DNA from: Comamonas fluminis
GTDB taxonomy: Bacteria; Pseudomonadota; Gammaproteobacteria; Burkholderiales; Burkholderiaceae_C
DNA: 64,000 bases
Direction of reading: 5' to 3'
Assembly (NCBI RefSeq): GCF_019186805.1
Contig: NZ_CP066783.1
Location: 3,547,501 to 3,611,500 of the forward strand
In this document: piece after piece, positions 4,424 through 46,861 of the stretch
Layout: each line of letters starts with the position of its first letter
Numbering within the stretch: position 1 is the stretch's first letter
The notes under the pieces: generated by a model
The model's database searches: none
The model's input: the letters and a program-made list of their open reading frames with translations, nothing else
What the model was told of the DNA's origin: nothing
Made by a program: the position numbers and the translations under genes

Positions 4424-6124
4424 ATGCGAACTTCTGTCAATCCGCTTCTTGCCAGTTTACTGGTTGGTCTCACAATTTCTTTGTCAGCCTGTGGCGGTGG
4501 AGATGATGGAGGCGAAGCCAGCGTCCCCACCACCTCTGGCTTTGTGCTGCTTGGGGCAAAGACTGCACCAGCCAGCACAGTCGGCAAAGATGGCGACTTT
4601 TATTTGGACAGCTCCACAGGCAAGCTCTATGGACCCAAAGCAAATGGAGCATGGCCCACTGACCCACTGACGCTGATTGGCCCTGCTGGCCCTGCTGGCG
4701 TAGAAGGCCCTGCTGGAGCAGAGGGCCAGCCTGGATACACGCCTGGCGCCGTTCTGATTACTGGTACGCGCGCACCCGCAAGCACTGTGGGCCGTGACGG
4801 CGACTTCTATGTCGATATCAGCACGTATGCGCTGTATGGCCCCAAATCCGGAAATGTTTGGGGCTCGACTATTGGTACTTTGAAAGGAGCCACTGGTGCC
4901 ACCGGCGCGACAGGTGCAACCGGTGCAACCGGCTCTAATGGAGCAGCAGGGGCTGATGGTGCTACAGGTGCCACCGGCCCTGCCGGTGCAACAGGCTCCA
5001 CTGGAGCAACAGGCCCTGCAGGTGCCACAGGTGCAACTGGATCTACGGGTGCTGCAGGTTCGACAGGTGCAACAGGCTCTACAGGCGTAGGCGGCGCCAC
5101 TGGTGCAACTGGCCCTGCAGGTGCAACTGGATCTACTGGTGCGGCAGGCCCGACAGGTGCAACAGGCTCTACAGGCGTAGGCGGCGCCACTGGTGCAACT
5201 GGCCCTGCAGGTGCAACTGGATCTACTGGTGCGGCAGGCTCGACGGGTGCAACAGGCTCTACAGGCGCGGGCGGTGCCACTGGCGCAACAGGTCCTGCAG
5301 GTGCAACCGGTGCAACTGGATCCACCGGCGCAGCAGGCCCGACAGGCGCAACAGGGTCCACAGGTATTGGCGGAGCAACAGGTTCAACTGGCCTGACCGG
5401 CCCAACAGGAGCTACTGGCGCGACGGGATCTACCGGTGCTGCAGGCCCGACAGGAGCTGATGGAGCGACCGGTGCAACAGGTCCTGCTGGTGCAACTGGG
5501 ACCGGGTCCACAGGTTCAACCGGAGCGACAGGCCCTACAGGCGCGCAAGGGCCTGCCGGTGCAACAGGTGCCCAGGGCGCGACAGGAAGCACTGGCGCAC
5601 CCGGCGCAACGGGCCCCGCGGGCGCTCAAGGTCCAGCTGGTGCGACAGGTAGTACAGGAGCAACTGGTGCAACCGGCGCCACCGGAGCAAGTGGACCTGT
5701 AACCTATTCTTACTACATTAATGATGCAAATAACTGGGGAGCGACCCAAGCATCAACAAGCAGCAACGTTTACTACATGACGACAGGTAGTGGATGGACA
5801 CAGTCCGTGGACAACGGAGTCCTAATACCTAGAGCATGCAACAACCTAAAGTTTCTAGCGACCCTGTCCGGGACTCTAGCCGGTTTAACATCCACTTACA
5901 AATTGGAGCTTCTGAGCTCAACACCTCTGTCAGCCCCCCCTGGCACTCCCATTAACACTTTCAATTGCACCGTTGGTAAATCAACCCCTTCATGCAACAT
6001 CTCTGAGCAAGGAAGTCTCCTTATTCCCTCCGAAAGTATTCTCCAAGTCCGGGTTAGTGGAGGAACTCAAAACTTTTCAGAATGGACAGGTGCTCTTTAC
6101 GCTTCCGTGGTCTGTGGTGATTAA
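4424..6124 (+). CDS. Collagen-like repeat lipoprotein (prophage cargo)
   Basis: A 566-residue protein with a lipoprotein signal peptide (hydrophobic core then lipobox L-S-A-C at about residue 23). Two related ~50-residue units follow, each with APASTVG(K/R)DGDFY(L/V)D and LYGPK, split by a short G-P-A-G tract. A long G-X-Y domain spans about residues 155-425, dominated by GAT, GPA and GST triplets, with one phase break (GATGTGST). A non-collagenous C-terminal head of ~140 residues begins GPVTYSYY. Collagen-like bacterial proteins trimerise and act in adhesion or surface filaments; threonine-rich triplets can be O-glycosylated in Bacillus BclA. Location on a prophage suggests lysogenic conversion of the cell surface (inference). 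A tail fibre is less likely because of the lipobox. Confidence 0.9.
4886..5698 (+). repeat. Collagen G-X-Y coding repeat, ~90 triplets
   Basis: Nine-base units encoding Gly-X-Thr/Ala repeat for ~810 bp. Larger near-identical blocks, including a repeated ACAGGCGTAGGCGGCGCCAC segment near 5081 and 5171, show recent duplication. All units are multiples of three, so expansion or contraction would alter stalk length without frameshift. Confidence 0.95.
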
Positions 6125-18889: not shown

Positions 18890-19750
18890 TTATCTGGTCA
18901 AAAAGTCCTGAACCATTTTATTAAAAGCATCTGCATGCTCCCATTGCGCCCAGTGCCCGCACTGGTTAAAGACATGTAACTCCGCATTGGGAATACCCCA
19001 GATCAAGCGCAGACCAATATCCAGCGGAACAAAACGATCATCCCGTCCCCAGATTACCAATGTCTTGGCCTTTATCTCCGATAAGCGGGAGCTGTAATCA
19101 CTGAACTGTTTGGGATTGATCTGCAGACTTTTGACAAAATTTTCCAGATGGTCACGGCGTGCAAGAATATTATTCAAGCGCTGCTGGTAAAGCTCTTCCG
19201 TCAAGCTGCTGGCGTCATATACAAACACGCTCATCATGCGCTTGATATTTTCCACCGTAGGATCGCGATACAGCGCACCAATCAACTTGATGCCTTCGGT
19301 GGGCATGGGCACAAAGCTGCTGGGCCCGCCAGTTCCCCCGCCCATCAAAATGAGCTTTCCAACCATCTCCGGGTTCGCCAGCGCAAAGCCAACGGCACTA
19401 TGCCCGCCCATGGAGTTGCCAATGATGTGCACCTTGGCAAGCTGAAGCTCGTCCAGCACCGCCTTTAAACAACGCGCATTGAGGTCAGAGCGCGAGCCTG
19501 TGCTGACGATGGTGTCGCTCTTGCTCCAGCCCGGGCAGTCCAGCAAGATGACGCGGTAGCCTGCACTGACCAGCGGCTCGATATTGCGGTGAAAGTTGGC
19601 CCAGCCACTGGCGCCCGGCCCTGAGCCGTGCAGCATGACGACAACCTGCTCTCCACTGCCAACGTCGTTGTAATGCAGTTTGAGAGGCTTTCCATCTTCA
19701 GTAATGGTGACAAATCGGCTGGTTGATTCTTCAGTAATGGCGGTGTTCAT
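18890..19750 (-). CDS. mhpC: 2-hydroxy-6-oxonona-2,4-dienedioate hydrolase
   Basis: A 286-residue alpha/beta hydrolase, the length of E. coli MhpC. The oxyanion-hole [10 protein letters not shown] motif, nucleophile elbow GNSMGG (Ser ~114), acid in [11 protein letters not shown] and catalytic His in [11 protein letters not shown] are all visible. This is the C-C bond hydrolase of the meta-cleavage pathway, splitting the ring-fission product of 2,3-dihydroxyphenylpropionate into succinate and 2-hydroxypentadienoate. It is the last gene of the mhp operon, 102 bp after mhpE. Confidence 0.93.
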
Positions 19751-19852
19751 ATCCGTATTTCCGTGAGTGGAAAGCAGCTTGCGAAAAGATGCTCACGCAA
19801 GCGAGAAAAAGACTTTGAAGGGTGATTACCTTGATCTGACTGAGAGGCCTGG

Positions 19853-20884
19853 TCAGGCCGCCACGGCCCCCTGCTGGCGCAGCAAGTCCAGAGCCACGTC
19901 CACAATCATGTCTTCCTGGCCGCCCACCATGCGGCGCTTGCCCAGTTCGACCAGAATATCCACAGCTTTGAGGTTGTACTTGGCCGCAGCCACTTCAGCA
20001 TGGCGAAGGAAGGAGCTATATACACCGGCATAGCCAAGCGCCAGGGTTTCACGATCCACGCGCACGGGGCGATCTTGCAGCGGGCGAACAATGTCGTCGG
20101 CAGCATCCATCAGCTTGTACAGATCGGTGCCATGGTTCCAGCCCATGCGGTCTGCAGCGGCGATGAACACCTCCAGCGGGGCATTACCGGCACCTGCCCC
20201 CATGCCAGCCAAGCTTGCATCGACGCGGTCGCAGCCCTCTTCCACAGCCACAATGGAATTGGCCACGCCCAGGCTCAGGTTGTGGTGGGCGTGCATGCCT
20301 GTCTGCGTTTCAGGTTTGAGCACATCCTTGAAGGCGCGAAAGCGATCACGCACATCCTGCATCCCCAGAGCCCCGCCAGAGTCCACGACATAGCAGACCG
20401 TTGCCCCATAGCTTTCCATCAGCTTGGCCTGTTGGGCCAGCCCTTGCGGAGTTTGCATATGGCTCATCATTAAAAAGCCCACGGCCTCCATGCCCAGGTG
20501 CCGGGCATACTCAATATGCTGGCGCGAAACATCGGCCTCGGTGCAGTGAGTTGCCACACGCACCACACGTACACCGGCATCGTAGGCAGCTTTCAGATCA
20601 TGAACAGTGCCAATGCCCGGCAGCAGCAGCGTTGTAAGCTTGGCATGCTTGACCACGCTGGCAACCGCCTCAATCCATTCCAGATCCGTGTGAGCACCAA
20701 AGCCATAGTTGAAGCTGGAGCCTTGCAAACCGTCCCCATGCGCAACTTCGATGGAGTCCACTCTGGCTTCATCAAGTGCTCTGGCAATCTGCTGGACCTG
20801 ATCAATGCTGTACTGATGGCGGATGGCATGACTGCCATCTCGCAAAGTGACGTCGGAAATATAAAGTTTCTTGTTCGCGTTCAT
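19853..20884 (-). CDS. mhpE: 4-hydroxy-2-oxovalerate aldolase
   Basis: A 343-residue class II pyruvate aldolase of the HMGL-like TIM-barrel type. The opening [20 protein letters not shown] has the R-D and metal-binding Asp, and [14 protein letters not shown] carries the metal-binding His pair. It cleaves 4-hydroxy-2-oxovalerate into pyruvate and acetaldehyde and normally channels acetaldehyde to MhpF, encoded directly upstream with an 11-nt gap. The C-terminal communication domain is present, so the length is full. Confidence 0.95.
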
Positions 20885-20895
20885 AGCCGTCTTTC

Positions 20896-21846
20896 TCAGG
20901 CAGATGCATGCTCGGCAGCCAGCATGCGGGCTGCCATGTGCTCGGCAGTACGAAGACCCGCGCTGGTCATGATGTCCAGATTTCCTGCATAGGCGGGCAG
21001 GTAGTGAGCAGCGCCTTCCACCTCCAGAAACACCGAGGTTTTCAGACCTGTCATTGCATTGCCAACGCCGGGAATGCGAATGGGCGTGTCGATGCGGTCG
21101 AACTGCACTTTTTGCTTCAAGCGATAGCCGGGAACGTAAGACTGCACATCTGCCGCCATGCGCTCGACAGATTCGGCAATGGCGTCCTGGTCCGCAAAGT
21201 CACTCAAGGTGTAGACCGTATCGCGCATGATCAATGGCGGCTCTGCCGGGTTCATGATGATGATGGCTTTCCCCTTGGAGGCCCCGCCAACCACCTCGAT
21301 GGCTTTCGATGTAGTTTCTGTGAACTCGTCAATATTGGCGCGCGTTCCAGGGCCTGCACTTTTGCTGGCAATCGAAGCCACGATTTCACCGTAATGCACC
21401 TTGGCAACCCGGGATACCGCGGCCACCATCGGAATGGTGGCCTGCCCGCCGCAGGTAACCATATTGACGTTCAGCGCATCCAGATGCGATTGACCATTGA
21501 CGACGGGAATGCAGTAAGGGCCAATGGCTGCAGGCGTCAGGTCAATCATTCGAATGCCTGGCTTGAGGCCACGCAAGAACGCATCATTTTTGACATGGGC
21601 GCCAGCACTGGTGGCATCGAACACAAAGTCGATGTCAGCAAACTCAGGCATGCGAGTCAAACCCTCCACCCCTTCATGAGTCACTGCGACGCCCATGCGA
21701 GCTGCGCGCGCCAGTCCATCGGAGGCAGGGTCGATACCAACCATGGCGCCCATTTCAATGTTTTTGCCGTGGCGCAGGATCTTGATCATCAGATCAGTAC
21801 CAATATTCCCGCTGCCAATGATGGCTGCCTTGAGTTTGCGTGTCAT
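20896..21846 (-). CDS. mhpF: Acetaldehyde dehydrogenase (acetylating)
   Basis: A 316-residue enzyme, identical in length to E. coli MhpF. The Rossmann motif [15 protein letters not shown] is at the N-terminus and the catalytic cysteine is in [14 protein letters not shown]. It oxidises acetaldehyde to acetyl-CoA with NAD+ and CoA in complex with MhpE. It lies between a Bug gene and mhpE with short spacers. The final steps of the pathway therefore deliver acetyl-CoA and pyruvate to central metabolism. Confidence 0.95.
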
Positions 21847-21865
21847 AGCAATATTCAGTGTGAAA

Positions 21866-22843
21866 TCATTCGATAGAGGCGCCGCTGGCTTTAATCAGCG
21901 GTGCCCAGCGAGTCAGCTCGGACTGGATGAAAGCTCCAAACTGAGCCGGAGTAGAAGGGAAAGGCTGCATGCCTTGATCGGCAAAGCGCTTGAGCACTTC
22001 GGGATCTTTCATCGCCTTCAGCAGCGCTTCATTGAGGCGGTTGACAGTGGCCGCTGGCGTACCAGCCTTTGCCACAGCGCCAAACCACACGCCAGCGTTC
22101 ACGCCTTGGATTCCGAGTTCGGCAAGCGTTGGCACATCAGGCATTTGCGGAGCACGCTTGTCTGCGGCAATGGCAAGCGGTTTGAGCTTTTTGCCTGCAA
22201 TCAGGGGCGCTGTGCTGATGACGGGGTCAAACATGAAGTCAACTTGACCACTCATCACGTCTTGCAGCGCAGGTGCCGAGCCTTTGTATGCCACATGGTT
22301 GAAGGTGCCGCCCGTTTTGCCACGGAAGGTTTCACCCAGCAGGTGCCCAATGGAGCCCATGCCCTGTGAAGCGAAGTTCAGGCCACCCTTGCGGGTTTTG
22401 GCTTGCTGCACCACGTCGCTGACGCTGTTCATGGGGCTATTGACCCCAACCACCATCACCAGAGGTGAAGAGATCAGCGAAGTGATGGGCGTGAAGTCCT
22501 TCAGAGGGTCATACGAAAAGTTGCGAAACAACGTGGGGTTGATGGCAAACATTTCGGTGGCGCCCACGTAAATCGTGTGCCCATCCGCCGGTTGCTGGCG
22601 CACAAAGGCCGCCGCAATCTGGCCGCCACCGCCTGGCTTGTTATCGACAACCACAGGTTTGCCAAGTTGTTCGCTGACTTTGAGCGCCAGGATGCGCGCA
22701 ATGGCATCCGTGATTCCGCCTGCAGGAAATGGCACGACCATGGTCAGTGAGCGGCTGGGAAAGCTCGCCTCCGCCCAGGCAGGTGCAGCAGTGGCTGCAA
22801 TGGCGAGAGCGCTAAGGCCTAGCAGGTTACGTCGATTCCACAT
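21866..22843 (-). CDS. Bug/TctC-type binding protein inserted in the mhp operon
   Basis: A 325-residue periplasmic protein with a signal peptide ([25 protein letters not shown]). Family signatures are [50 protein letters not shown] and [26 protein letters not shown]. It lies between mhpD and mhpF with only 20 nt to mhpF, so it is co-transcribed with catabolic genes. The likely ligand is a phenylpropanoid acid (inference from position). The E. coli mhp locus has instead a separate MFS transporter, MhpT, which is absent here. Confidence 0.92.
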
Positions 22844-22933
22844 GCGATTGTCTCCGTTGTAGTAAGTCGGTTTCCGGGGTGAAAAATGGCAAATTCGTGA
22901 GGCTTGCTGGCTAGTGCCAGTCTTGGTGCCTCT

Positions 22934-23722
22934 TCAAATCTGGCCGAACTGGGCGCGAACAGAGCCGACGCCACTGATATGGGCTTCGAAGCGGTCTCCC
23001 GCCTGAACAGGAACCATGGGGCCCAAGGCTCCTGTCAGCACAAGATCACCTGCGCGCAAAGGCTGACCCAGCTGTGCCAGCTTGCGGGCTAGCCAGACGG
23101 CGGCATTGAGAGGATGGCCAAGGCAAGCCGCACCTGTGCCGGTGGATACCGCCTCGCCATTGCGCTCCATTCGCATATCGCACAGCTTCAAATCCAGCGC
23201 GTTCAGCCGCGTTGGCACTGCGCCCAGCACGACGAGGCCGCTGGATGCGTTGTCTGCCACGGTATCGATGAAGCGAATATTCCAGTTGGCAATACGGCTG
23301 CCCACGATTTCTATCGCGGGCAATACATAGTCGGTCGCGTGAATGACGTCGACCAGCGTGGCATCTTTCAGATCCAGATCACGCGCCAGAACCAGCGCCA
23401 CTTCTGCCTCTACTTTGGGCTGCAAAGTGCGTGACAGAGGTACGACTTCATCGTCGCCGTAAACCATGTCCGCAAACAAAGTGCCAAAGTCAGGTTGATC
23501 CACACCCAGTTGCTTTTGCACCGCCAGCGAGGTCAGACCAATTTTGCGACCGATGATGCGGCGCCCCTGTGCCTGCGCATGCTGCACGTTGGCAAGCTGC
23601 ACGGCATACGCAGTCTCGTTGTCAAGGATTTCATCGCGCAGTGGAGCAATCGGTGTAGATGTCGCTTCCGCCTGGCGAAGACGTTCTGCCCACTGGGCAA
23701 TAGGGAGGTTGGATTCAGACAT
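22934..23722 (-). CDS. mhpD: 2-keto-4-pentenoate hydratase
   Basis: A 262-residue member of the fumarylacetoacetate-hydrolase-like hydratase family. It shows [24 protein letters not shown], the metal-binding acidic set in [10 protein letters not shown], and the closing [19 protein letters not shown]. It adds water to 2-hydroxypenta-2,4-dienoate to give 4-hydroxy-2-oxovalerate. It is placed after mhpB with a 26-nt gap, and a Bug gene follows after 90 nt. Confidence 0.94.
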
Positions 23723-23748
23723 GGTGTTCTCGTGCTGGTTATTGAGGG

Positions 23749-24720
23749 TTATTGCTGGGTGTGCATCAACATCAATCCATAACCTGCAATCAGGGCAGGA
23801 ATGGCGCGGTAGGCCCGCACGGTGCAGGGCAGTTCTGTGTTCAATGGCAATGCGCTGCGTGCAACCAGCCAGGTTTTTGATTCGTGTGCAGAGTTACCCG
23901 CCGCTTCAGCAATGGATGCTTCGCTCATGGCACACAGACTCGACAGCTCGCCTCGTGCCAGCGCTTCCATCCACTGCAGATCCCACTGAGGATTCAAGGG
24001 TTTCATCCAGTCTTCGCCATTGGCCAGCGCCATGCCTGCCGCTTTGACGCGTTCGGTTTTTGCAGCCCGCTCCTGCACGGTCGGCATCTGCTTGACCGTA
24101 ATGCGTTCGCGCACGGCGGGATCTGGATGCTGCAGGGTCGGGACCGGTGGCTCGTGCGACAGCCCCCCAGATCCAATGAGCAAAGTACGCTGGGGCAAGG
24201 TATCGAGGAACTTGCCAATGGCCTGACCCAGCTCCACACAGCGAGACATGCGCGCTATGGTCGGCTGTGCAACTGCATTGAGGAAGATGGGTATGACTGG
24301 CGGTGTCTTGAGGTCATCACCCCACAGCACCTGCAGCGCCTGAGAAAAACCGTGGTCCACCAGCATGCGCCTGGAAACAGCCATATCAAAATGGGCGTCC
24401 ATCAAGTGCTCGGCCAGCGCAACCGCTGTATCACTGGGAACATTCAGTGGACCTGCGGGAGAGAGGTAGTCCCCTACGGCAGTCACTTCGCTGCCGACGC
24501 AGAACGTGGGCATCAGATCATTGAAGAATCCGTTGTAATGGTCCGGGCCAATCAGGATGATGAGCTCGGGATCAAAGGCATGAACAGCAGCCCTCGCCTG
24601 TTCCACCGCGCAGTCGAGGGCGTTCTGATCCTCTTCGCTGACAGGGTTCAGCCCCAGCAGCGGAGAGTGAGACATGCCCAAAAATGCGCGCTTCGCATTC
24701 TGAAGTGCGACCTCAATCAT
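23749..24720 (-). CDS. mhpB: 2,3-dihydroxyphenylpropionate 1,2-dioxygenase (extradiol)
   Basis: A 323-residue class III (LigB-type) extradiol dioxygenase. Conserved pieces are [10 protein letters not shown] at the N-terminus, [23 protein letters not shown] and the catalytic VDHGFSQAL and [12 protein letters not shown] segments. It opens the ring of 2,3-dihydroxyphenylpropionate between C1 and C2. E. coli MhpB is 314 residues, so length agrees. It overlaps mhpA by 4 nt (24717-24720) and is therefore translationally coupled. Confidence 0.94.
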
Positions 24721-26504
24721 GCGAGCACCTGCGCTGCAGCGGGCAATTGCGCATGAAGCACACCTGCCAGTTGTCTTGTGATGCTCGACACCTCCTGCGG
24801 AGACGCCAGTGCGGCCACAAAGCGGTCCGGGCGAACGAACACAATCGATTTGGTTTGTGCCCCGAACCAGTCCTTGATACGCCCCTGCGCATCACCAATC
24901 GTCAGCACACCATCATTCGTTGACGAGGCGTGCGCAAGCTGACCTGTTGGCATCACTCGAATGAAGCGGGCTCCCAGCCCTTGCCAGAACGCACGTGCTC
25001 TGTCATCCATGCCATAGCTTGGATCGGTGCCCCAGGCGATGACGGCGAAGTTCAGGCCAATCAGGTCATCCAGACGGACTGTTTCCCCTTGTGCAGTCAG
25101 CACTCTGGGCTGAATGAACATGCGCCCGACGGGGCTGGGCTGCGGGGCTTCCAGGCCATGCACCAGACGGCCAAACAGAGACTCTTTTTTCTCGGCCATC
25201 AAGCCTAACAGTCGACTCAGAGGCGTGTCTCCGGAGCGGTCCAGCAAACCGGCCAAGGGAGTTTTTTGTCCCTGGTTGCTGGTTGCGCTCTGATGCAGAA
25301 CCACGCCTTGCTCATAGCGCGGCATGGGTTTGAAGCGCATCTCCGCAAAATACTGCTTCACCGGGGGAACAGCGTTCAGCGCCAGCATCACGGTGTCACG
25401 CACCTTGGCTGCGGTATGGCTCTCCGGCGCAAAAATGTCTCCCGCAACTTCAGACAGGTGAATCATGCTGCGGGCATGGCTTCGGCGCTCTTGTTCATAA
25501 CTGTCAAGCAGGCTGGAGCCCGCCTGGCCTTTGACAACCATTGCCAGCTTCCATGCAAGATTGCTGGCATCGCGCATGCCGCTGTTGTAGCCCTGACCTT
25601 GCCAGACCGGCATGATGTGCGCGGCATCTCCCGCCAGCAAAATACGGTTCACACGAAACTGATCCGCCAGACGGGCGTTGTGGGTGTAGACGCGCTTACG
25701 GATGTAATCCACCTTGTCAGGGTCTGCCACCACCTTGCGCATCAACTGGGCCAGGTTCTCAGGCTTGGAGAGTTCCTCCTCAGTTTCGCCGGGCATGACC
25801 ATGAATTCAAAGCGACGAATTCCGTGAGGCAGTGCTGCCGAGACATAGGGGCGCTCGGGATCGCAGTGCATGCCGATATGCGGCGTGCCCAGCGGGTCAT
25901 TGCGCACGTCAACCACAATCCACTGGTTGGGCTTGGTCCGGCCTTCAAAGCCGATGTTCAACGTGCGGCGAATCATGCTGTTGCCACCGTCGCAGGCCAC
26001 CATGTATTTAGCCGTCAGCGTGCGCACCTGACCACTTCCACTTTTAATTTCTGCACTCACGCCAGAGTCTGTCTGGGAGAACTTTTGAAGCTCTTGGCCC
26101 AGCAACACCTGAACCTTGGGAAAGCGCTGAAGCCCCTGGTAGAGGATGGCATCGACCTGCGGCTGAATGAACGCGTTGCGACGTGACCAGCCAAACTCGT
26201 CTGTACGTGGCTCAATGGAAGCAAAGCACTGGCCCGATGCCGTGTAAAAGCGCATCCAGTGATCTGGCGTGATGTGCGCCTGCACTTGCTCCGACAGCCC
26301 TGCCGCCTGCAAAGTGCGCAGGGACTCGTCATCAATACCGATAGCGCGTGGGTAGTCGATGATGCTGTCGAGCTTTTCAATCACCAGCACGCTCACCCCG
26401 GCAAGGCCCAGGGTGTTGGCCAGTGTCAGGCCCACAGGCCCTGCGCCAACTATCAAAACATCACATTCGTTGATTTCAACTTGTCGTTGATCTTGGGCAT
26501 TCAT
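24717..26504 (-). CDS. mhpA: 3-(3-hydroxyphenyl)propionate hydroxylase
   Basis: A 595-residue FAD-dependent aromatic hydroxylase. The FAD-binding [25 protein letters not shown] is at residues ~20-45, the DG motif is [14 protein letters not shown] and the third FAD motif is [26 protein letters not shown]. The C-terminal thioredoxin-like domain is intact. It makes 2,3-dihydroxyphenylpropionate with NADH and O2, the entry step. It is about 40 residues longer than E. coli MhpA, mostly in the C-terminal third. It is the first gene of the operon; a palindromic operator lies 80 bp upstream. Confidence 0.95.
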
Positions 26505-26730: not shown

Positions 26731-27552
26731 ATGAAACCTTCAGACACCGCATCAACCGGCAATGACTACAAGGATGTGCGCAGCCTTTCTCGTGGGCTGG
26801 CATTGCTGCAGGCTCTCAATCGAGCGCCTGGCGGCATCGCCACAACCACGGCCCTTGCGCAAAGCTGCAATATCCACAGAACTACCGTCAAGCGTCTGCT
26901 GGAGACTCTGCGTGCCGACGGCTATGTCCGTCAGGGAGAAAAAGAAGGCCAGTACTACCTGACCTTTGCCGTCCGAGGATTGAGCGAAGGCTTTGTCGAC
27001 GATGACTGGGTGGAGCAGATTGCCTTGCCACTCATGCGTGCGGCCATACCCGATCTGCTCTGGCCCTGTGATCTGGGAACACTGGAAGGTGGATTCATGG
27101 TGGTGCGAGAGAGCACTCACCGGTTTAGTCTTCTCTCTCAGCACCGCGGAAAAATAGGCGAAAAGCTGCCGCTGTTTTTTACTGCCATGGGGCGTGCCTA
27201 TTTAAGCGCTTGCTCTGATTCCGAAAGGGAAGGACTGCTGACCCTGCTCGGACAACGAACTGACGAAGTGGGGAGCATGGCGCGAGATGTCAAAGCGGTA
27301 GAGCGCTTAATCACTGAAACGCGCACACGTGGCTATGCAATGAATGATGGCGACTGGGATCGAGAGCATGCCTTTGCGGCCATTGCGGTGCCAGTGGTTT
27401 CGCGTGGCCAGTTGCACGGCGGTATCAACCTTGTGTTCCCCAAAGCTGCGATCAATGTCACGGAAGTGGAAAAACGCTACCTTCCTCGCCTGAAGCGCCT
27501 TGCCCAGCGCATTGGCAAAGATATTCAGCCATGGATGAACAGGGGCAATTGA
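26731..27552 (+). CDS. mhpR: IclR family activator of the mhp operon
   Basis: A 273-residue IclR-type regulator, close to E. coli MhpR (277). The N-terminal winged helix has RGLALLQALNRAPGGIATTTALAQSCNIHRTTVKRLLETL. The ligand domain includes MGRAYLSACSDSEREGLL and a closing GGINLVFPKAAINVTEVEKRYLPRLK. It is divergent from mhpA. By family knowledge it activates transcription in response to 3-(3-hydroxyphenyl)propionate. ATG 26731 follows the short leader CACCATGGATTGCC; an ATG at 26722 is out of frame. Confidence 0.93.
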   Translation: MKPSDTASTGNDYKDVRSLSRGLALLQALNRAPGGIATTTALAQSCNIHRTTVKRLLETLRADGYVRQGEKEGQYYLTFAVRGLSEGFVDDDWVEQIALPLMRAAIPDLLWPCDLGTLEGGFMVVRESTHRFSLLSQHRGKIGEKLPLFFTAMGRAYLSACSDSEREGLLTLLGQRTDEVGSMARDVKAVERLITETRTRGYAMNDGDWDREHAFAAIAVPVVSRGQLHGGINLVFPKAAINVTEVEKRYLPRLKRLAQRIGKDIQPWMNRGN

Positions 27553-40195: not shown

Positions 40196-40882
40196 ATGAA
40201 CCAGCGATCACCGTCATTCCTTTCGCTGGTGAAATCTGCTGCTTTGCCTGCCCTGACGGCATGCACTCTGCTTTTGTGGGGCATGGATGGCAATGCCCAA
40301 ATCATGCGCTGCACCGATGCAAAAACCGGCGAGGTCACCTACACCAACGGACGTTGCCTCGGCGGCGAAGCATCCGCACAGATCCGCCCTGCGCAAAGCC
40401 CTGATGAAATCGCCCAGGAGCGCGATGCTGCCGCCAAGGCGCGCGAGTTGAGCAAGGCCCAGATGTCTCGTGACGAAGCCCAGAGACGCCAACGCGAAGA
40501 GGCTGAACGCAAAGAGCGAGAAGCCGCTGAAAAAGCCCAGGCCCGGGCTGGCGGCAACCTTCAGAACACTGCGGCCTGCCGACAGGCTCGGGAACGCCAT
40601 AACGCCATCCTGGCCGAAGCCAATCCCGACCCCGCTACCTGGGGAGAGCGCAGCCAGGCCGCACAGGCTCAGATGGAAATGAGCTGCCTGGGTGCCACGG
40701 CCTACCAGCAACTGCAGCAGACCCGTGCGCTTCAGCCCAACGCCATCAACCGCCCGCAGTGGGGCTATGGCCAAGTTCACCCTCCTGTAGTTCGCCCCCT
40801 GCCCCAGCCCCCAGCCAAGATCGTCAACTGCAATGTCTTTCGCTGCTATGACAACCGGGGCGGCGTGCACCCCATACCTTGA
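40196..40882 (+). CDS. DUF4124-like secreted protein with charged coiled-coil region
   Basis: A 228-residue exported protein. After a signal peptide ending in GNAQ comes an N-terminal DUF4124-like segment (IMRCTDAKTGEVTYTNGRC), a short Cys-bounded beta unit common in betaproteobacterial periplasmic proteins. Residues ~75-125 form a long E/R/A/K helix. Further cysteines in TAACRQARERHNAIL and the C-terminal NCNVFRCYDNRGG may form disulfides. Function unknown. AAGGAG precedes ATG 40196. Confidence 0.8.
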   Translation: MNQRSPSFLSLVKSAALPALTACTLLLWGMDGNAQIMRCTDAKTGEVTYTNGRCLGGEASAQIRPAQSPDEIAQERDAAAKARELSKAQMSRDEAQRRQREEAERKEREAAEKAQARAGGNLQNTAACRQARERHNAILAEANPDPATWGERSQAAQAQMEMSCLGATAYQQLQQTRALQPNAINRPQWGYGQVHPPVVRPLPQPPAKIVNCNVFRCYDNRGGVHPIP

Positions 40883-41103
40883 CCCGAGGTCTAAACACCT
40901 AGCCTGCTGAGATTCAGGAAAACGCCGCAGATGCCTCCTGAAACAGCACCTCTTCGTGCTTGGGCAACGCTTTCGACAGCCTCTCACGTTAGCTCCTTAC
41001 CTACAGGCTGCTCGGACAGCAGCACCTAGCATTGAACCTCCTATTGAGCCGAGCCACTTCACCAGGTGGCTTAGCCCTGTTTCTGCACGGAAGTTCTCTG
41101 TTT

Positions 41104-42849
41104 ATGCGCCCTAAACAACAAAAAGCGGCCATCGCTTCATCGCCAGCTACCCTCGGGAAATCGCCCTCCGGAATCAAAGGTCTGGATGAAATCACGGGCG
41201 GTGGCCTGCCCACCGGGCGCCCTACGCTGATCTGCGGCGCAGCAGGCTGCGGCAAAACCTTGATGGCGGCCGAGTTCGTCGTGCGCGGCGCGGCGCAGTA
41301 CAACGAGCCTGGCGCCATCATCCTGTTTGAAGAGACGGCCGAGGAGCTGACGGCCAATATGCGCTCCATTGGCTATGACCTCGATGCCATGCAAAGCCAG
41401 GGCCAGCTGGCGCTGGACTTCATCCGCGTAGATCCTGCCGAGCTGATTGAAACCGGCAGCTACGACCTGGAAGGCCTGTTCATTCGCATTGGTCACGCCA
41501 TTGACTCTGTCGGCGCCAAGCGCGTGGCGCTGGACACGATTGAAACCCTGTTCAGCGACATTGCCAACCATGCCATCTTGCGTGCCGAGCTTCGGCGCCT
41601 GTTTCGCTGGCTCAAGGACCGTGGCGTCACCGCTGTGATCACCGGCGAGCGCGGGGAAAAAGCCCTGACTCGCTATGGACTGGAAGAGTATGTGGCCGAC
41701 TGCGTGATCCTGCTCGATCACCGCATCGTCGATCAGGTATCCACGCGCCGGCTTCGCGTTGTGAAATACCGCGGCTCTGCGCACGGCACCAACGAATACC
41801 CGTTCCTCATTGGCGCACGTGGTATTTCCGTCCTCCCCATTACCTCGCTCACGCTGGACCACGAAGTATTCAGCGAACGTGTCTCCACCGGCATCAACGG
41901 CCTGGACATGATGCTGGGCGGCGCTGGCGTGTATCGCGGCAGCAGCCTGCTGATTTCGGGCACACCCGGTACCGGCAAAAGCAGTATTGCCGCAGCCTTT
42001 GTTGATGCAGCCTGTGCACGGGGCGAGCGCGCCATCCTGTTTGCCTATGAGGAATCACGCAACCAGCTGGTGCGCAATATGCAGTCCATCGGCATCAAGC
42101 TGCAGCGCTGGATTGACAAGGGCCTGCTGCAGATTGAAGCCACCCGCCCCACCCTGCAGGGCCTGGAGCAGCATCTAGTGCATATGTACAACCTGGTGAA
42201 CGAATTCAAGCCCAGCGTGGTTGCCGTAGACCCCATCAGCAACCTGACCAGTCACCAGAACGATGCCGACCTGTCGCTGACCCTGATGCGCCTGATTGAC
42301 TTTCTGAAGACCCAAGGCACCACGGCACTGTTTACCAGCCTGAATGCAGAAAGCACAAACACCCCCGGCTCGCAACTGGGCGTGTCGTCCCTGATGGACA
42401 GCTGGCTGTGGCTCAACAATATCGCCTTCAATGGCGAACGCACGCGCACGCTGCAAGTCCTTAAATCGCGCGGCATGCCTCACTCCAATCAGGTGCGTGA
42501 GTTTGTGTTCTCCAACCACGGTGTGGACCTGATCGATGTCTATATGTACGGCGACCAGGTACTGACTGGCACGGCACGCGTGGCACACGAAGCCCAGGTG
42601 CAGGCCACATCCGCGCTGCGCGAGCGAGACCATGAGCGACGCATGCGCGACCTGACCGACAGGCGCAAGGCTGTTGACGCGCAGATTGCCGCGCTCAATG
42701 TGGCCGAGCAAGAGCGCGAAGGTCAGGTCAAGTTCGAAATTGCCCGCGAAAAGCTGGAGGCAGAAGGTGCGCTCAATCGTGCCCGCGTCATCTCGGCGGC
42801 CCGCAGCGCTGCCTCGAATGAGAAACGCAAGAAACAGGACAGGAGATAG
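41104..42849 (+). CDS. kaiC: KaiC-like double-domain ATPase/kinase
   Basis: A 581-residue protein with two RecA-type KaiC domains. CI has Walker A GAAGCGKT (45-52) and paired catalytic glutamates E76-E77; CII has GTPGTGKS (286-293) and E316-E317. The CII segment aligning with the autophosphorylation site of cyanobacterial KaiC (S431-T432) reads S428-S429 in VSSLMDS, so a phospho-acceptor pair is kept as Ser-Ser. Beyond ~490 it has a ~90-residue charged coiled-coil extension absent from the 519-residue cyanobacterial protein. It is the first gene of a four-gene operon with two kaiB genes and a histidine kinase. ATG 41104 fits homology; the frame is open upstream. Confidence 0.95.
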   Translation: MRPKQQKAAIASSPATLGKSPSGIKGLDEITGGGLPTGRPTLICGAAGCGKTLMAAEFVVRGAAQYNEPGAIILFEETAEELTANMRSIGYDLDAMQSQGQLALDFIRVDPAELIETGSYDLEGLFIRIGHAIDSVGAKRVALDTIETLFSDIANHAILRAELRRLFRWLKDRGVTAVITGERGEKALTRYGLEEYVADCVILLDHRIVDQVSTRRLRVVKYRGSAHGTNEYPFLIGARGISVLPITSLTLDHEVFSERVSTGINGLDMMLGGAGVYRGSSLLISGTPGTGKSSIAAAFVDAACARGERAILFAYEESRNQLVRNMQSIGIKLQRWIDKGLLQIEATRPTLQGLEQHLVHMYNLVNEFKPSVVAVDPISNLTSHQNDADLSLTLMRLIDFLKTQGTTALFTSLNAESTNTPGSQLGVSSLMDSWLWLNNIAFNGERTRTLQVLKSRGMPHSNQVREFVFSNHGVDLIDVYMYGDQVLTGTARVAHEAQVQATSALRERDHERRMRDLTDRRKAVDAQIAALNVAEQEREGQVKFEIAREKLEAEGALNRARVISAARSAASNEKRKKQDRR

Positions 42850-42851
42850 CC

Positions 42852-43205
42852 ATGACTGCCTCTTCCTCCCCGCAAGACTACGACGGCGCAGCTGTGGCCG
42901 AACCCGAGTGGTTCTTGCGCCTGTATATCGCGGGCAAAGCCGCACGCGCTGAAACCGCGCTGCAAAACCTCAAGCGCCTGTGCGAGGAGCATCTGGCAGG
43001 CCGCTACAGCATTGAAGTGATAGATCTTCTGAAAACCCCAAAACTGGCGGCTGGCGACCAGATTCTGGCCGTACCCACCGTGGTGCGCAAAGTGCCTGAA
43101 CCCATGCGCCGCATTATTGGCGACCTGTCAGACCGGGAACGCGTGCTGGTTGGACTCGATATTCAGCCCGTTTCGACGGATGGCCGATCGGCAGGCACGC
43201 TATGA
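42852..43205 (+). CDS. kaiB: KaiB-type fold-switching protein, first copy
   Basis: A 117-residue protein with a ~20-residue N-terminal extension before the KaiB domain. The domain is canonical: LRLYIAGKAARAETALQNLKRLCEEH, YSIEVIDLLKTPKLAAGDQILAVPT and the closing RRIIGDLSDRERVLVGLDI. KaiB binds the phosphorylated KaiC ring after switching to a thioredoxin-like fold. It starts 2 nt after the kaiC stop. Confidence 0.95.
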   Translation: MTASSSPQDYDGAAVAEPEWFLRLYIAGKAARAETALQNLKRLCEEHLAGRYSIEVIDLLKTPKLAAGDQILAVPTVVRKVPEPMRRIIGDLSDRERVLVGLDIQPVSTDGRSAGTL

Positions 43206-43549
43206 CACACCAAGACCAGGCCGATACCCTGTCCGGATGGGATTCGCCCGACTGCAGTGATGTGTGCGAAATGGCGGAGTTTCGGCTGTACGTGAGCACG
43301 GTATCCCCACTGTCTTCGCGTGCCATCGTCAATGCACGGCAGTTTCTGAATGCGCACCTGCCTGGCTCCTATCAATTGACGGTGCTCGATATCGCCAAAC
43401 ATGTTCTGGAAGCCAAGCGCGATCAGGTGATTGCCTCGCCCACGCTGGTGCGCAGCTCACCCTTGCCCAGTCGCCGCGTCGTCGGCGATCTTTCGGATGT
43501 TGTGCGCATGCGCGACTGGTTCTGCCTGCAAGCCCCCTCGACTCCATGA
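43202..43549 (+). CDS. KaiB-type protein, divergent second copy
   Basis: A 115-residue paralogue of the preceding KaiB, overlapping it by 4 nt. Preserved parts are FRLYVSTVSPLSSRAIVNARQFLNAH, YQLTVLDIAKHVLEAKRDQVIASPTLVR and RRVVGDLSDVVRMRDWF. The C-terminal GLDI motif of canonical KaiB is replaced and the 'K-N-P-x-L-A' loop is changed, so it has probably diverged in partner choice. It overlaps the histidine kinase start by 4 nt. It may link KaiC to the kinase, as in other proteobacterial kai loci. Confidence 0.92.
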   Translation: MTHQDQADTLSGWDSPDCSDVCEMAEFRLYVSTVSPLSSRAIVNARQFLNAHLPGSYQLTVLDIAKHVLEAKRDQVIASPTLVRSSPLPSRRVVGDLSDVVRMRDWFCLQAPSTP

Positions 43550-45873
43550 TGTATCCCGGAACTACCGCGAAGGCTGCAGCCTCCCCCGATATCGCTGCAC
43601 TGACCTCCGAGAATCAGGAACTACGTCTGCGTCTGCGCGAGCTGGAAGACACGCTGGGCGCCATCCGCGCCGGCGAAGTAGATGCACTGGTGGTCAACGA
43701 CGACATCTTCATTCTGGAAAGCGCCAGCGCCACTGGCAATCGTCTACGCCAGGATGTGCTGCTGCAGATGAAAGATGCGGTCTTTGCATTTGACTGCGAT
43801 GACCAGCTCATTTTTTTGAACCAGTCTGCCGAGCAGCTCTATGGCCTGAAGGCCAATGAAGTTCTGGGCTGCTGCAAAGCCAGCCTCTACACCGAACTGC
43901 AGGACAAGGGACATCCCCCTCAGCCAGAGAGGCGGATGAAGCCAGTGGCCGAAAGCGAGTCAGCAGCCCCCCCGCAGCGCTTTGACAGCTTTGCCATTCA
44001 CCGCTTGCACAATGGCTCATCGCTGTATGTGGAGCAAAGCATCTCCATGCTGCTGGACAAGGCCCAGCAGATTTTTGGCACGCTGATTGTGGTGCGTGAT
44101 GTCACAGAGTCACGCCAAGCCGCCATTCGCCGGGATGCTTTCGCTCGCCTTGGCGAATCTCTGCGCGACCTCGACACCCCTTTAGATGTGGGCTACCGCT
44201 CGGCCCAGATGCTTGGCGAAACACTGGGCCTGCTGCGCGCGGGCTTTGTACGGTTTACGCAACCAGACAACTCCTTGCTCGTAGCCTGCGAATGGCTTTC
44301 TGCAGAGGCCAGCTCTATTGTCGGGCGCATTTTTGCTGACGATTTTGTGGACCTTATCGCTGAACTGGAGCACCGCGCCACCATCAGCATCAACGATGTC
44401 AGCACCGACCCTCGCACCCGCCATGTCGCCCCCATGCTGGCAGACATGAGAATCGGTGCCATGGTGTGCATTCCCTACCTGCACAACGGTCAGCTGTACG
44501 CGGTTCTCTTTCTTCACGATACCCAGGTGCGCAACTGGACGGATGCAGAACTGTCCTTTATCAACGAAGTGGCCGAACGCACGCAGATTGCCGTGGAACG
44601 TGTCAACAGCGCCACCGCATTGCGCTACAGCGAAGCGCGGCTGCGCGAAGTCAACGAGAGTCTGGAAGCGACCGTACAGGCACGCACACAGGAGCTGATC
44701 GGAGCACAGGAAGCTCTGCGCCAATCCCAGAAAATGGAGGCCGTTGGGCAACTGACCGGCGGCATTGCCCACGACTTCAACAACCTTCTCGCAGGCATGA
44801 GCGTGAGCCTGGAGCTGGTTCGCCGCCGCGTGCAGCAGGCCCGTTATGGTGATATCGACCGCTATCTGGACATGGGCAGCGAAGGCATCAAGCGTGCGGC
44901 ATCGCTCACCCAGCGGCTGCTGGCCTTTGCGCGCCGACAAACGCTGGACCCAAGACCCACCGACATTAATCGCCTGGTCTCGGGAATGCAGGAACTGATA
45001 GAGCGCTCCATCGGCCCCAATGTCTCACTCGCTGTGGCCGGTGCGCAGGACTTGTGGATCACCCGTATCGACGGGCCGCAGCTGGAAAATGCCCTGCTCA
45101 ATCTCTGCATCAATGCCCGCGATGCCATGGCCCCCGCAGGTGGAAAACTGGTCATAGAGACCAGCAACAAACACCTGGACAGCCTGGCCGCGGCCACCCA
45201 CGAACTGCAGCCAGGTCAGTATGTGGCACTGAGCGTGACCGATACCGGGGTGGGCATTCCCAAGGATTTGATCAACCGCATCTTTGATCCGTTCTTCACC
45301 ACCAAGCCTACAGGTCAGGGCACAGGTCTGGGCCTATCGATGGTGTACGGCTTTGTGCGTCAATCAGGCGGCGAAATACGCGTGTACTCCGAGCCCGGAC
45401 AGGGCACGACGATGCGCATGTACTTTCCGCGCCATTTCAGCGAGGACGATTTTATGGAGAACACCCGCAACACCAGCGTTGTGCCAGATGGAGCAGGCAA
45501 GCGCATCATGCTCATTGATGACGAAGCCACCATCCGCACGCTGATTGCCGAAGAACTGCGCGATGCAGGCTATGTGGTCACGACCGCCGAAGACGGCCCA
45601 TCTGCGCTGCGCATTCTGGAAGGGCCGATCGAGATCGACCTGCTCATTACCGACGTGGGCCTGCCCGGTGGCCTGAACGGCCGTCAAGTGGCAGATGCCG
45701 CGCGCGTCAAACGCACCGATCTGAAAGTGCTGTTCATCACCGGCTATGCAGAGACCGCCGCCGTGGGCAATGGCCTGCTGGCCCCTGGCATGCATGTGCT
45801 GACCAAGCCGTTCGAAATTGCCGAGCTGGCTGACAAGATCAAGGTATTGATCAGCGATGACAGCCCGCAGTGA
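43546..45873 (+). CDS. Hybrid histidine kinase (PAS-GAF-HisKA-HATPase-REC) of the kai operon
   Basis: A 775-residue soluble sensor kinase with no transmembrane helices. A short N-terminal coiled coil ([19 protein letters not shown]) leads to PAS (about 65-190), GAF (about 200-345), a second coil, HisKA with H409 in [13 protein letters not shown], HATPase motifs ([24 protein letters not shown]) and a C-terminal receiver with acceptor D703 in [11 protein letters not shown]. The H-D-F-N-N box is typical of the family that phosphorylates its own or a partner receiver. Coupled by a 4-nt overlap to the second kaiB, it is the likely output of the clock-like module. No DNA-binding response regulator is adjacent. 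Confidence 0.93.
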
Positions 45874-45907: not shown

Positions 45908-46861
45908 TCAATGCGGCTGAGCCAGCCCCTCTCTCACCGTGGGGTAGTTCAGCTGCAGCTTCAGCTCTCGCTTGAGTCGCTGGTTGCTCAGGCGGCGTGA
46001 CTCGCTCATGAAGCTCAGCAGCATCGCAGGCAGCTCTGCGACAGCCTGTTGCCTGCTGATACGCGCTGGCCTGGCCAGCCCATAGAGATCAGCGGCCAGA
46101 TCAAAGTAATCTCCCATCTTCATCTGCGTATCGTCACTGGCGTGATAGATGCGCTGCGGCTTGCCGCGCCATAAGGCCCTGATACAGATTCTGGCCAGGT
46201 CTTCCGCATGAATATGGTTGGTGTAAACATCATCCTGCGTCTGCAGCACTGGCGTGCCACGTAGCAGCCTGGCGCGCGGCGTGCCCCCTTCACGGTCCGG
46301 GGCATAAATGCCGGGAATGCGCACAATGCTGGCCACCTGCCCCTTCAGCCCTGCGTCTCTCATGCGCTGCTCGGCATCCACCCGGCGCAATGCTCTGGGT
46401 GTCGCCGGTGCCACGCTACGGGTTTCATCAATCCATTGCCCCTGGCAGTCCCCATAGACCCCGGATGTGGAGGCATAAACCAGACTGCGCGGCAGCCGCC
46501 CAAGTAGCAGGGAAGCGAGCAAGAACCGGCTTCTGTCATCACGCTGCCAGCCAGCCTCGCCTTCCTGCAAACTGGGAGGAGGCGCCAGATACAGCACCCG
46601 CGTGGCCACACCGGCCAATCTGCGCAGGCTGCGCGGCTGATCCAGATCACCCCATAGTGGCTGCACACAAGAGGCTTGCAGAGCAGAAAAACGGCTGCGA
46701 TCACGCACCATTGCCAGCACAGCCAGGGAGCCACCTCCCGAAGCGGCGCTGGTCAATCTGCGTGCAATGCGCCTTCCTATGTCGCCATAACCGACGATCA
46801 GCACACGTTCACGACGAAAGCGCGCTGGTAGCGCGCCCAATGGGCTTTGGTTTGAGGGCAA
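45908..46861 (-). CDS. NAD-dependent epimerase/dehydratase (YeeZ-like extended SDR)
   Basis: About 317 residues, extended SDR fold. The cofactor loop is RVLIVGYGDIGRRIAR, the catalytic Tyr is probably in VYASTSGVYGDCQG, and there is IVRIPGIYAPDREGG further on. It resembles the E. coli YeeZ-type proteins of unknown substrate. The start is uncertain: the frame is open far upstream with no good ATG; TTG 46861 is given, and the GTG/TTG codons nearer the Rossmann strand are alternatives. It is divergent from the ferredoxin reductase gene. Confidence 0.8.
   Translation of the reverse strand: MPSNQSPLGALPARFRRERVLIVGYGDIGRRIARRLTSAASGGGSLAVLAMVRDRSRFSALQASCVQPLWGDLDQPRSLRRLAGVATRVLYLAPPPSLQEGEAGWQRDDRSRFLLASLLLGRLPRSLVYASTSGVYGDCQGQWIDETRSVAPATPRALRRVDAEQRMRDAGLKGQVASIVRIPGIYAPDREGGTPRARLLRGTPVLQTQDDVYTNHIHAEDLARICIRALWRGKPQRIYHASDDTQMKMGDYFDLAADLYGLARPARISRQQAVAELPAMLLSFMSESRRLSNQRLKRELKLQLNYPTVREGLAQPH

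Follow-up and report, generated by a model that had tools for sequence, protein, structure and literature searches.

A KaiA-less kaiC-kaiB-kaiB-kinase operon of Comamonas fluminis with two KaiB lineages and a Kai-associated module at the start of the kinase

The KaiC of Rhodobacter (Cereibacter) sphaeroides is phosphorylated independently of KaiA, forms a dodecamer through its tail and, together with KaiB, makes up an hourglass driven by ATP/ADP, according to passages of PMC10076222. Its KaiB has also served to study fold switching: the substitutions I68R/V83D/N84A (so given in its methods, with N84R at one place in its results) bring 86% of the protein into the switched state, and in models the last strand becomes a helix through V83D by itself, as excerpts of PMC10808063 report, and isomerisation of three prolines limits the switching of KaiB (passages of PMC11551320). 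In Legionella, KaiB has been implicated in stress responses (PMC10808063, in part). A survey that includes Ramlibacter tataouinensis (PMC3164672, in part) gives contexts in which kaiC and kaiB are followed by a histidine kinase or a GGDEF/EAL protein. Here we describe an operon of this kind, kaiC-kaiB1-kaiB2-kinase, at 41104-45873 of a 64,000-nucleotide (nt) stretch of the Comamonas fluminis genome (contig NZ_CP066783.1, positions 3,547,501 to 3,611,500), which we call the window. It belongs, as a variant, to the KaiBC systems of KaiC2 type, and is thereby related to the simplest biological timer known; what makes it notable is the presence of two KaiB lineages whose predicted folds are opposite and of a Kai-associated module at the start of the kinase.

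The R. sphaeroides operon (NZ_CP030274.1) is likewise of KaiC2 type, with Ser-Ser sites, a C-terminal extension and the order kaiC-kaiB-kinase, and its kinase carries the same N-terminal module (57.7 bits); it differs in having one annotated KaiB and an HWE-type kinase of 478 amino acids (aa), whereas the operon of the window has KaiB2 besides, and a kinase that is hybrid and CckA-like. The cyanobacterial SasA-KaiABC system also has a histidine kinase beside KaiC, and KaiB2 resembles the SasA sensor fold, but in the window the sensor-like protein is separate, the kinase has no KaiB-like domain and there is no KaiA. For KaiBs that are stabilised in the switched fold (Legionella 4KUN; KaiB-TV-4, excerpts of PMC10808063) the thioredoxin-like fold is the same as the one predicted for KaiB2, which differs from them in following a canonical-lineage KaiB within one operon. 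The text of PMC3164672, as distinct from its figures, describes neither two KaiB lineages nor a shared module for its kaiC-kaiB-kinase group, and no description of either was found in the open-access literature searched, subscription papers and figures not being covered.

The operon and its KaiC

41104-42849, + strand: kaiC, 581 aa, KaiC2 type (open reading frame (ORF), Pfam, structure-database profile match)
42852-43205, + strand: kaiB1, 117 aa, canonical KaiB lineage (ORF, Pfam, tree, model)
43202-43549, + strand: kaiB2, 115 aa, second KaiB lineage (ORF, Pfam, tree, model)
43546-45873, + strand: hybrid histidine kinase, 775 aa, CckA-like core (ORF, Pfam, structure match)
43597-43746, + strand: N-terminal module of the kinase, residues ~18-67, a coil and a 12-residue motif (profile)

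All four ORFs are intact, with a gap of 2 nt between kaiC and kaiB1 and 4-nt overlaps at kaiB1/kaiB2 and kaiB2/kinase, and the four proteins may be made at a fixed ratio. The family assignments by Pfam and by NCBIfam are in agreement, and both KaiBs score above the cut-off of PF07689 (KaiB1 88 bits, KaiB2 53 bits). Throughout the genome these are the sole two KaiB matches, and the operon KaiC is the sole protein with two strong KaiC domains. A KaiA search of the whole genome returned nothing, its control matching only Synechococcus elongatus; judged by this lack of KaiA, the locus is not a KaiABC circadian oscillator. The earlier note, made from the DNA letters, is thus borne out in its four-gene operon with this tight spacing, in the absence of kaiA and in its soluble hybrid kinase with PAS, GAF and receiver domains (see below), and the hourglass-type relatives that it had in mind do exist in R. 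sphaeroides KaiBC (PMC10076222, in part). Purifying selection is apparent in the comparison with the nearest relative (L047), the ratio of non-synonymous to synonymous rates (dN/dS) being 0.08 for kaiC, 0.14 for kaiB1, 0.33 for kaiB2 and 0.17 for the kinase; two additional comparisons gave 0.11-0.36, all with dS of at least 0.7 and so partly saturated. Together with the intact ORFs, this rules out a decayed operon. A defence system was also considered and rejected: KaiC was the sole PADLOC match, through two models that contain an ATPase (mad8 58 bits, IetA 19 bits).

KaiC has two RecA-like ATPase domains (Pfam KaiC, E=1.2e-107), and an alternative in-frame TTG at 41032 could add 24 aa to it. 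Among solved structures it matches R. sphaeroides KaiC best (8DBA, 617 bits over residues 17-570, which include the tail), compared with about 320 bits for cyanobacterial KaiC, and by its sequence the protein is of the R. sphaeroides KaiC2 type. Ser428-Ser429 correspond in the alignment to the two adjacent serines of R. sphaeroides KaiC, and a C-terminal extension of ~90 aa aligns with that of 8DBA, in which a coiled coil forms the dodecamer. KaiC of the window has the double domain, both catalytic Glu pairs and the Ser-Ser phosphosites by which a KaiC2-type hourglass is recognised, and the genome lacks KaiA, as is also characteristic of it.

For the wider comparison, 109 loci were examined: the window, 28 stretches from 26 other KaiB-bearing genomes of its family, and the 80 loci nearest in KaiC, which are the best 80 of at least 589 relatives found with an alignment of KaiCs headed by that of the window. 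Many of the 80 are metagenome bins whose taxon labels may be wrong. Exactly two KaiBs occur in 86 loci, one in 20, and three, four or none in one each, a two-KaiB share that is biased upward because the loci were chosen as the best KaiC relatives of the window; the 86 loci represent at most 84 genomes (L067 and L044 share one, as do L087 and L050). In the 84 KaiCs from loci with at least two KaiBs (82 two-KaiB loci plus L091 and L093, leaving out L051, L053 and L054, with split or truncated KaiC, and L036, with no KaiC on its contig), the Glu pairs of CI and CII are invariant (84/84), 82 and 83 retain the respective phosphosite serines, and the tail reaches 50 aa or more in 78. In L051 (G300), whose operon is similar in other respects, both kaiC and the kinase gene fall into two ORFs, through decay or sequencing error.

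Two KaiB lineages with different predicted folds

The two KaiBs are, by sequence, distinct lineages and not interchangeable copies. In a tree of 201 KaiBs a single branch, with a Shimodaira-Hasegawa-like approximate likelihood ratio test (SH-aLRT) value of 99, divides all 86 first from all 86 second KaiBs, so that the labels "first" and "second" require one change; the first-KaiB side also holds the reference KaiBs of R. sphaeroides, Anabaena and S. elongatus. Bootstrapping of 35 loci likewise gave one clade of second KaiBs (93/85; 92% of bootstrap trees); these loci were the window and 34 random ones, drawn after removal of L067 and L087 (genomes of L044 and L050) and the long-branched L053. 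Profiles of the two lineages, of which some of the proteins were members, correctly assign 86/86 first and 85/86 second KaiBs. Since the two separate across all 86 loci, a recent duplication of kaiB in the lineage of the window is ruled out. Distances between KaiCs correlate with those between KaiB1s (r 0.68) and KaiB2s (r 0.63; Mantel test, 80 loci), consistent with a unit that is inherited or transferred together.

By record label the two-KaiB loci come from ten bacterial phyla and the archaea: Pseudomonadota (29, plus 15 of the family of the window), Bacteroidota (18), Thermodesulfobacteriota (6), Methanobacteriota (archaea, 4), Verrucomicrobiota (3), Planctomycetota (3), one each of Chloroflexota, Lentisphaerota, Nitrospirota, Spirochaetota and Acidobacteriota, and three without a phylum label, the window included. 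Larger sets exist too, with four tandem KaiB genes after one KaiC in L093 (6721-8185, Planctomycetota bin) and three in L091 (9737-10891, archaeal record).

AlphaFold2, given the alignment of each lineage, predicts for KaiB2 the order strand-helix-strand-helix-strand-strand-helix with a mean predicted local distance difference test score (pLDDT) of 85, and for KaiB1 a topology like the ground state with a low mean pLDDT of 66.9. In Foldseek the eleven best matches of KaiB2, headed by Legionella KaiB 4KUN, are switched or KaiC-bound KaiBs, followed by SasA sensor domains; KaiB1 has crystals of the ground state as its seventeen best matches, with switched structures next at E 2e-3 or worse, matches that weigh less because the pLDDT of the model is low. 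The KaiB2 profile reaches SasA at 6e-5, compared with 0.37 for KaiB1. At the positions of I68, V83 and N84 the window has M, V and G in KaiB1 and S, D and W in KaiB2, and position 83 is hydrophobic in 86/86 first and 54/86 second KaiBs. The C-terminal switch segment is less conserved in second KaiBs, with G at the position of G88 in 74% of them and in 100% of first KaiBs. The three prolines of the fold switch are kept in KaiB1 of the window and in 85/86 first KaiBs. By the models, KaiB2 is predicted to be fold-switched and SasA-like, and KaiB1, with low confidence, to be in the ground state. A role of KaiB2 as a redox thioredoxin was rejected, CXXC occurring in 0/86 second KaiB domains (and in 0/86 first).

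The partner kinase, its module and the spread of the operon

The kinase has PAS (74-191), GAF (218-349), HisKA (401-465, with H409), HATPase_c (509-629) and receiver (654-765, with D703) domains, and H409, N-box, G-box, D703 and K754 are all present. It has no transmembrane-like stretch, the highest hydropathy over 19 residues being 1.35, and a Pfam scan found no KaiB-like domain (PF07689) in it, so that it is not of the SasA type. Its core is nearest to solved structures of the CckA type (5idj, 181 bits) and falls below the NCBIfam cut-off for CckA equivalogs (324 and 295 bits against 1000): as far as similarity scores go, it is CckA-like only and not a CckA equivalog.

Directly before PAS, the kinase starts with a module of ~50 residues, a coil followed by a 12-residue motif, over which no Pfam family matches at E up to 0.01. 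A profile built from 25 stretches, the window included, matches 85 of the 86 two-KaiB loci (60 of the 85 independent of the seed), the exception being L138, where the contig ends 182 nt after kaiB2. A regular expression found 81/86 (missing the window, L044, L047, L067 and L138); all 81 lie within 700 nt of kaiB2, as do the other four. In two Methylococcaceae bins (L096, 10626-15335; L097, 10535-17594) two module-bearing proteins follow one kai operon.

Whole-genome searches place the module beside kai genes as well. Scoring the first 16 or 22 candidates per genome gave 19 matches in the 399 genomes of the family, 18 of them strong (E 1.2e-10 or better) and all 18 beside kaiB; one weak match (7.4e-4) fell among the 372 KaiB-less genomes, the other 371 had no module among the candidates scored, and nine KaiB-bearing genomes, with another KaiC class or without a fetched KaiC, had no match at that level. 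The same procedure on 299 genomes of the phylum gave 12 matches: nine strong ones beside kaiB (window included), one in G504 beside a KaiB remnant, and two of ~1e-3 in KaiB-less genomes. The G504 stretch (L147, 8595-11944), with its KaiB remnant (31 bits) and a protein that has the coil but not the rest of the module, seems to be a kai locus in decay. In 28 genomes from which Kai-bearing loci had come, including many that supplied the seed, scoring of all candidates gave 30 strong matches, of which 28 lay at known loci, one after a second kaiC-kaiB and one in G708; two additional weak ones (3.7e-5, 2.9e-4) were found in G713. Among plasmids, five of the 16 records with a KaiC match were inspected, and the operons of all five (R. 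sphaeroides, Falsirhodobacter, Rhizobium, Sinorhizobium and Pararhizobium) have the module, only that of Pararhizobium being annotated with two KaiBs.

What follows the module varies. Pfam domains in 62 of the 85 partner proteins (leaving out 8 truncated or split ones and 15 of the family of the window) are PAS (61), HATPase_c (40), HisKA (36) and receiver (23), and more rarely HWE_HK (8), GGDEF (5), EAL (5) and sigma-54 (1); in eight Bacteroidota-type loci the partner is just 232-241 aa long. A second class of KaiBC loci in the family (L032-L034, L040-L042, L049, L052, L055) has one KaiB and a KaiC that is 36-40% identical where it lies on the stretch; the aligned starts of its nine partner proteins are distantly similar to the module (hhalign E 4.1e-6, probability 87).

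KaiB occurs in 27 of the 399 family genomes, the tandem pair in 16, and the same gene order is found in loci labelled as many phyla; a system specific to Comamonadaceae is consequently ruled out. The genes on either side of it are:

40196-40882, + strand: upstream flanking gene, 228-aa protein, which in relatives without the operon here adjoins the downstream flank
45908-46813, - strand: downstream flanking gene, read as epimerase-like, with an approximate start (ORF reading)

KaiB is absent from all four congeners sampled, and the flanking genes adjoin in all four, with 13-183 nt between the matched stretches; they adjoin within this range in G231 too, where the kai operon is on another contig. 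The earlier note had named an operon decayed or absent in close relatives as grounds for refutation; the absence holds for the congeners sampled, but adjoining flanks and purifying selection favour the gain of an intact unit over decay. The operon was probably acquired horizontally, gain by insertion being a simpler reading than loss. Elsewhere in the window, by ORF reading, an mhp-type-like aromatic meta-cleavage cluster (18890-26504, - strand; hydrolase, aldolase, acetaldehyde dehydrogenase, hydratase, ring-cleavage dioxygenase and monooxygenase) lies with an IclR-like regulator (26731-27552), and 4424-6124 (+ strand) encodes a collagen-like protein with GAT/GPT repeats and a lipoprotein-like start.

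How the putative timer may be wired

From the gene content and order, the type and residues of KaiC, the KaiB lineages, the predicted folds, the association of the module with kai genes and the sporadic presence computed here, we infer how the system might bind, keep time and signal, and to what target. With middling confidence, we read it as a KaiC2-type KaiBC energy-state timer that is coupled through the module to a CckA-like kinase, with KaiB2 as a non-switching, SasA-like partner. KaiC, with its exposed A-loop and extended tail, would autophosphorylate without KaiA; falling ATP/ADP, and KaiB1 that has refolded from its ground state and bound the CI ring, would lead to its dephosphorylation, making the system an hourglass or a recorder of the energy state and not a self-sustained clock. 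KaiB2, held in the thioredoxin-like fold that binds KaiC, would bind CI without slow refolding, like the SasA sensor, would compete with or complement KaiB1, and would help to present the state of KaiC. The N-terminal module would recruit the soluble hybrid kinase to the KaiBC complex, which would set its kinase/phosphatase activity, PAS and GAF contributing other inputs. The PAS and GAF domains named in the earlier note are confirmed, and the likely coupling point is the module and not these two domains alone.

Several observations weigh against this proposal. The KaiB1 model is weak, the preferences of AlphaFold2 among KaiB folds are disputed (PMC11344769 and PMC10836070, each in part), one second KaiB scores higher with the KaiB1 profile, and 16 of 19 single KaiBs fall on the second-KaiB side of the dividing branch, so that a duplication within this operon is only one possible origin of the second lineage. 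The KaiB2 profile reaches thioredoxins (0.0099) no better than that of KaiB1 (0.003), and 6 of the 84 KaiCs lack a long tail. All three fold-switch prolines are kept in KaiB2 of the window and in 84/86 second KaiBs, so KaiB2 may still switch. These prolines, and a GDLS-type region that second KaiBs retain, would suit a KaiB2 that is a subfunctionalised clock KaiB of other affinity or kinetics and no SasA-like adaptor, the module reading KaiC directly. The module indeed occurs with a single KaiB in R. sphaeroides and in 7 of the 20 one-KaiB loci, and its partner therefore need not be KaiB2; going by this occurrence its target may be KaiC or KaiB1, or neither. The different predicted fold, the less conserved C-terminal switch segment and the reach of the KaiB2 profile to SasA argue the other way, and we regard subfunctionalisation as rather unlikely. 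A stress or energy-state switch that keeps no time, in which KaiC and KaiB set the activity of the kinase by ATP/ADP, strikes us as conceivable, if on the doubtful side: the sporadic distribution would fit it, as would an R. sphaeroides hourglass that is itself set by ATP/ADP (PMC10076222, in part) and the link of Legionella KaiB to stress (PMC10808063, in part), but the slow-refolding prolines kept in nearly every first KaiB suggest that slowness has been selected.

The kinase could also stand upstream, its PAS and GAF signals reaching KaiC through the module and the timer having its output elsewhere. An input of this kind, a redox signal to KaiBC, has been suggested for the R. sphaeroides operon kinase (passages of PMC5520375), which again weighs against our proposal, and PAS is nearly universal in the module proteins; the effectors that follow the module are of output type (HATPase_c, receiver, GGDEF, EAL and sigma-54 in the counts above), and we consider this direction improbable. 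We give a similarly small chance to the module being a mere dimerisation coil of a subfamily of PAS kinases, carried along with kai genes. The coil does immediately precede PAS, and the strong copy in G708, lying away from kai genes in the 12 kb fetched, is an orphan that tells against our reading as well, but the module stays constant while effectors vary, heads the very short partners of the Bacteroidota-type loci and, in its distant form, nine output proteins that go with the second class of KaiC. The G708 copy belongs to a 1750-aa kinase (L177, 6019-11271), which may be a trans-acting partner because G708 has a kai operon elsewhere (L134).

Beyond this operon, we tentatively suggest, as a possibility less probable than its contrary, that bacterial and archaeal KaiA-less timers with a KaiC2-class KaiC have a common coupling system, in which an N-terminal docking module stands at the head of the partner protein irrespective of its effector, and that many of them add a second KaiB, locked in the fold that binds KaiC, as a free-standing sensor of the SasA type, one KaiB timing through its refolding and the other reporting. 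For the question of how timers without KaiA connect with the cell, the module, present across phyla and in the R. sphaeroides kinase, offers a specific handle. A single operon with paired KaiB lineages may supply a natural ground-state and a natural fold-switched protein and, if the predicted folds are true, KaiB1 and KaiB2 would allow a clean test of the purpose of fold switching.

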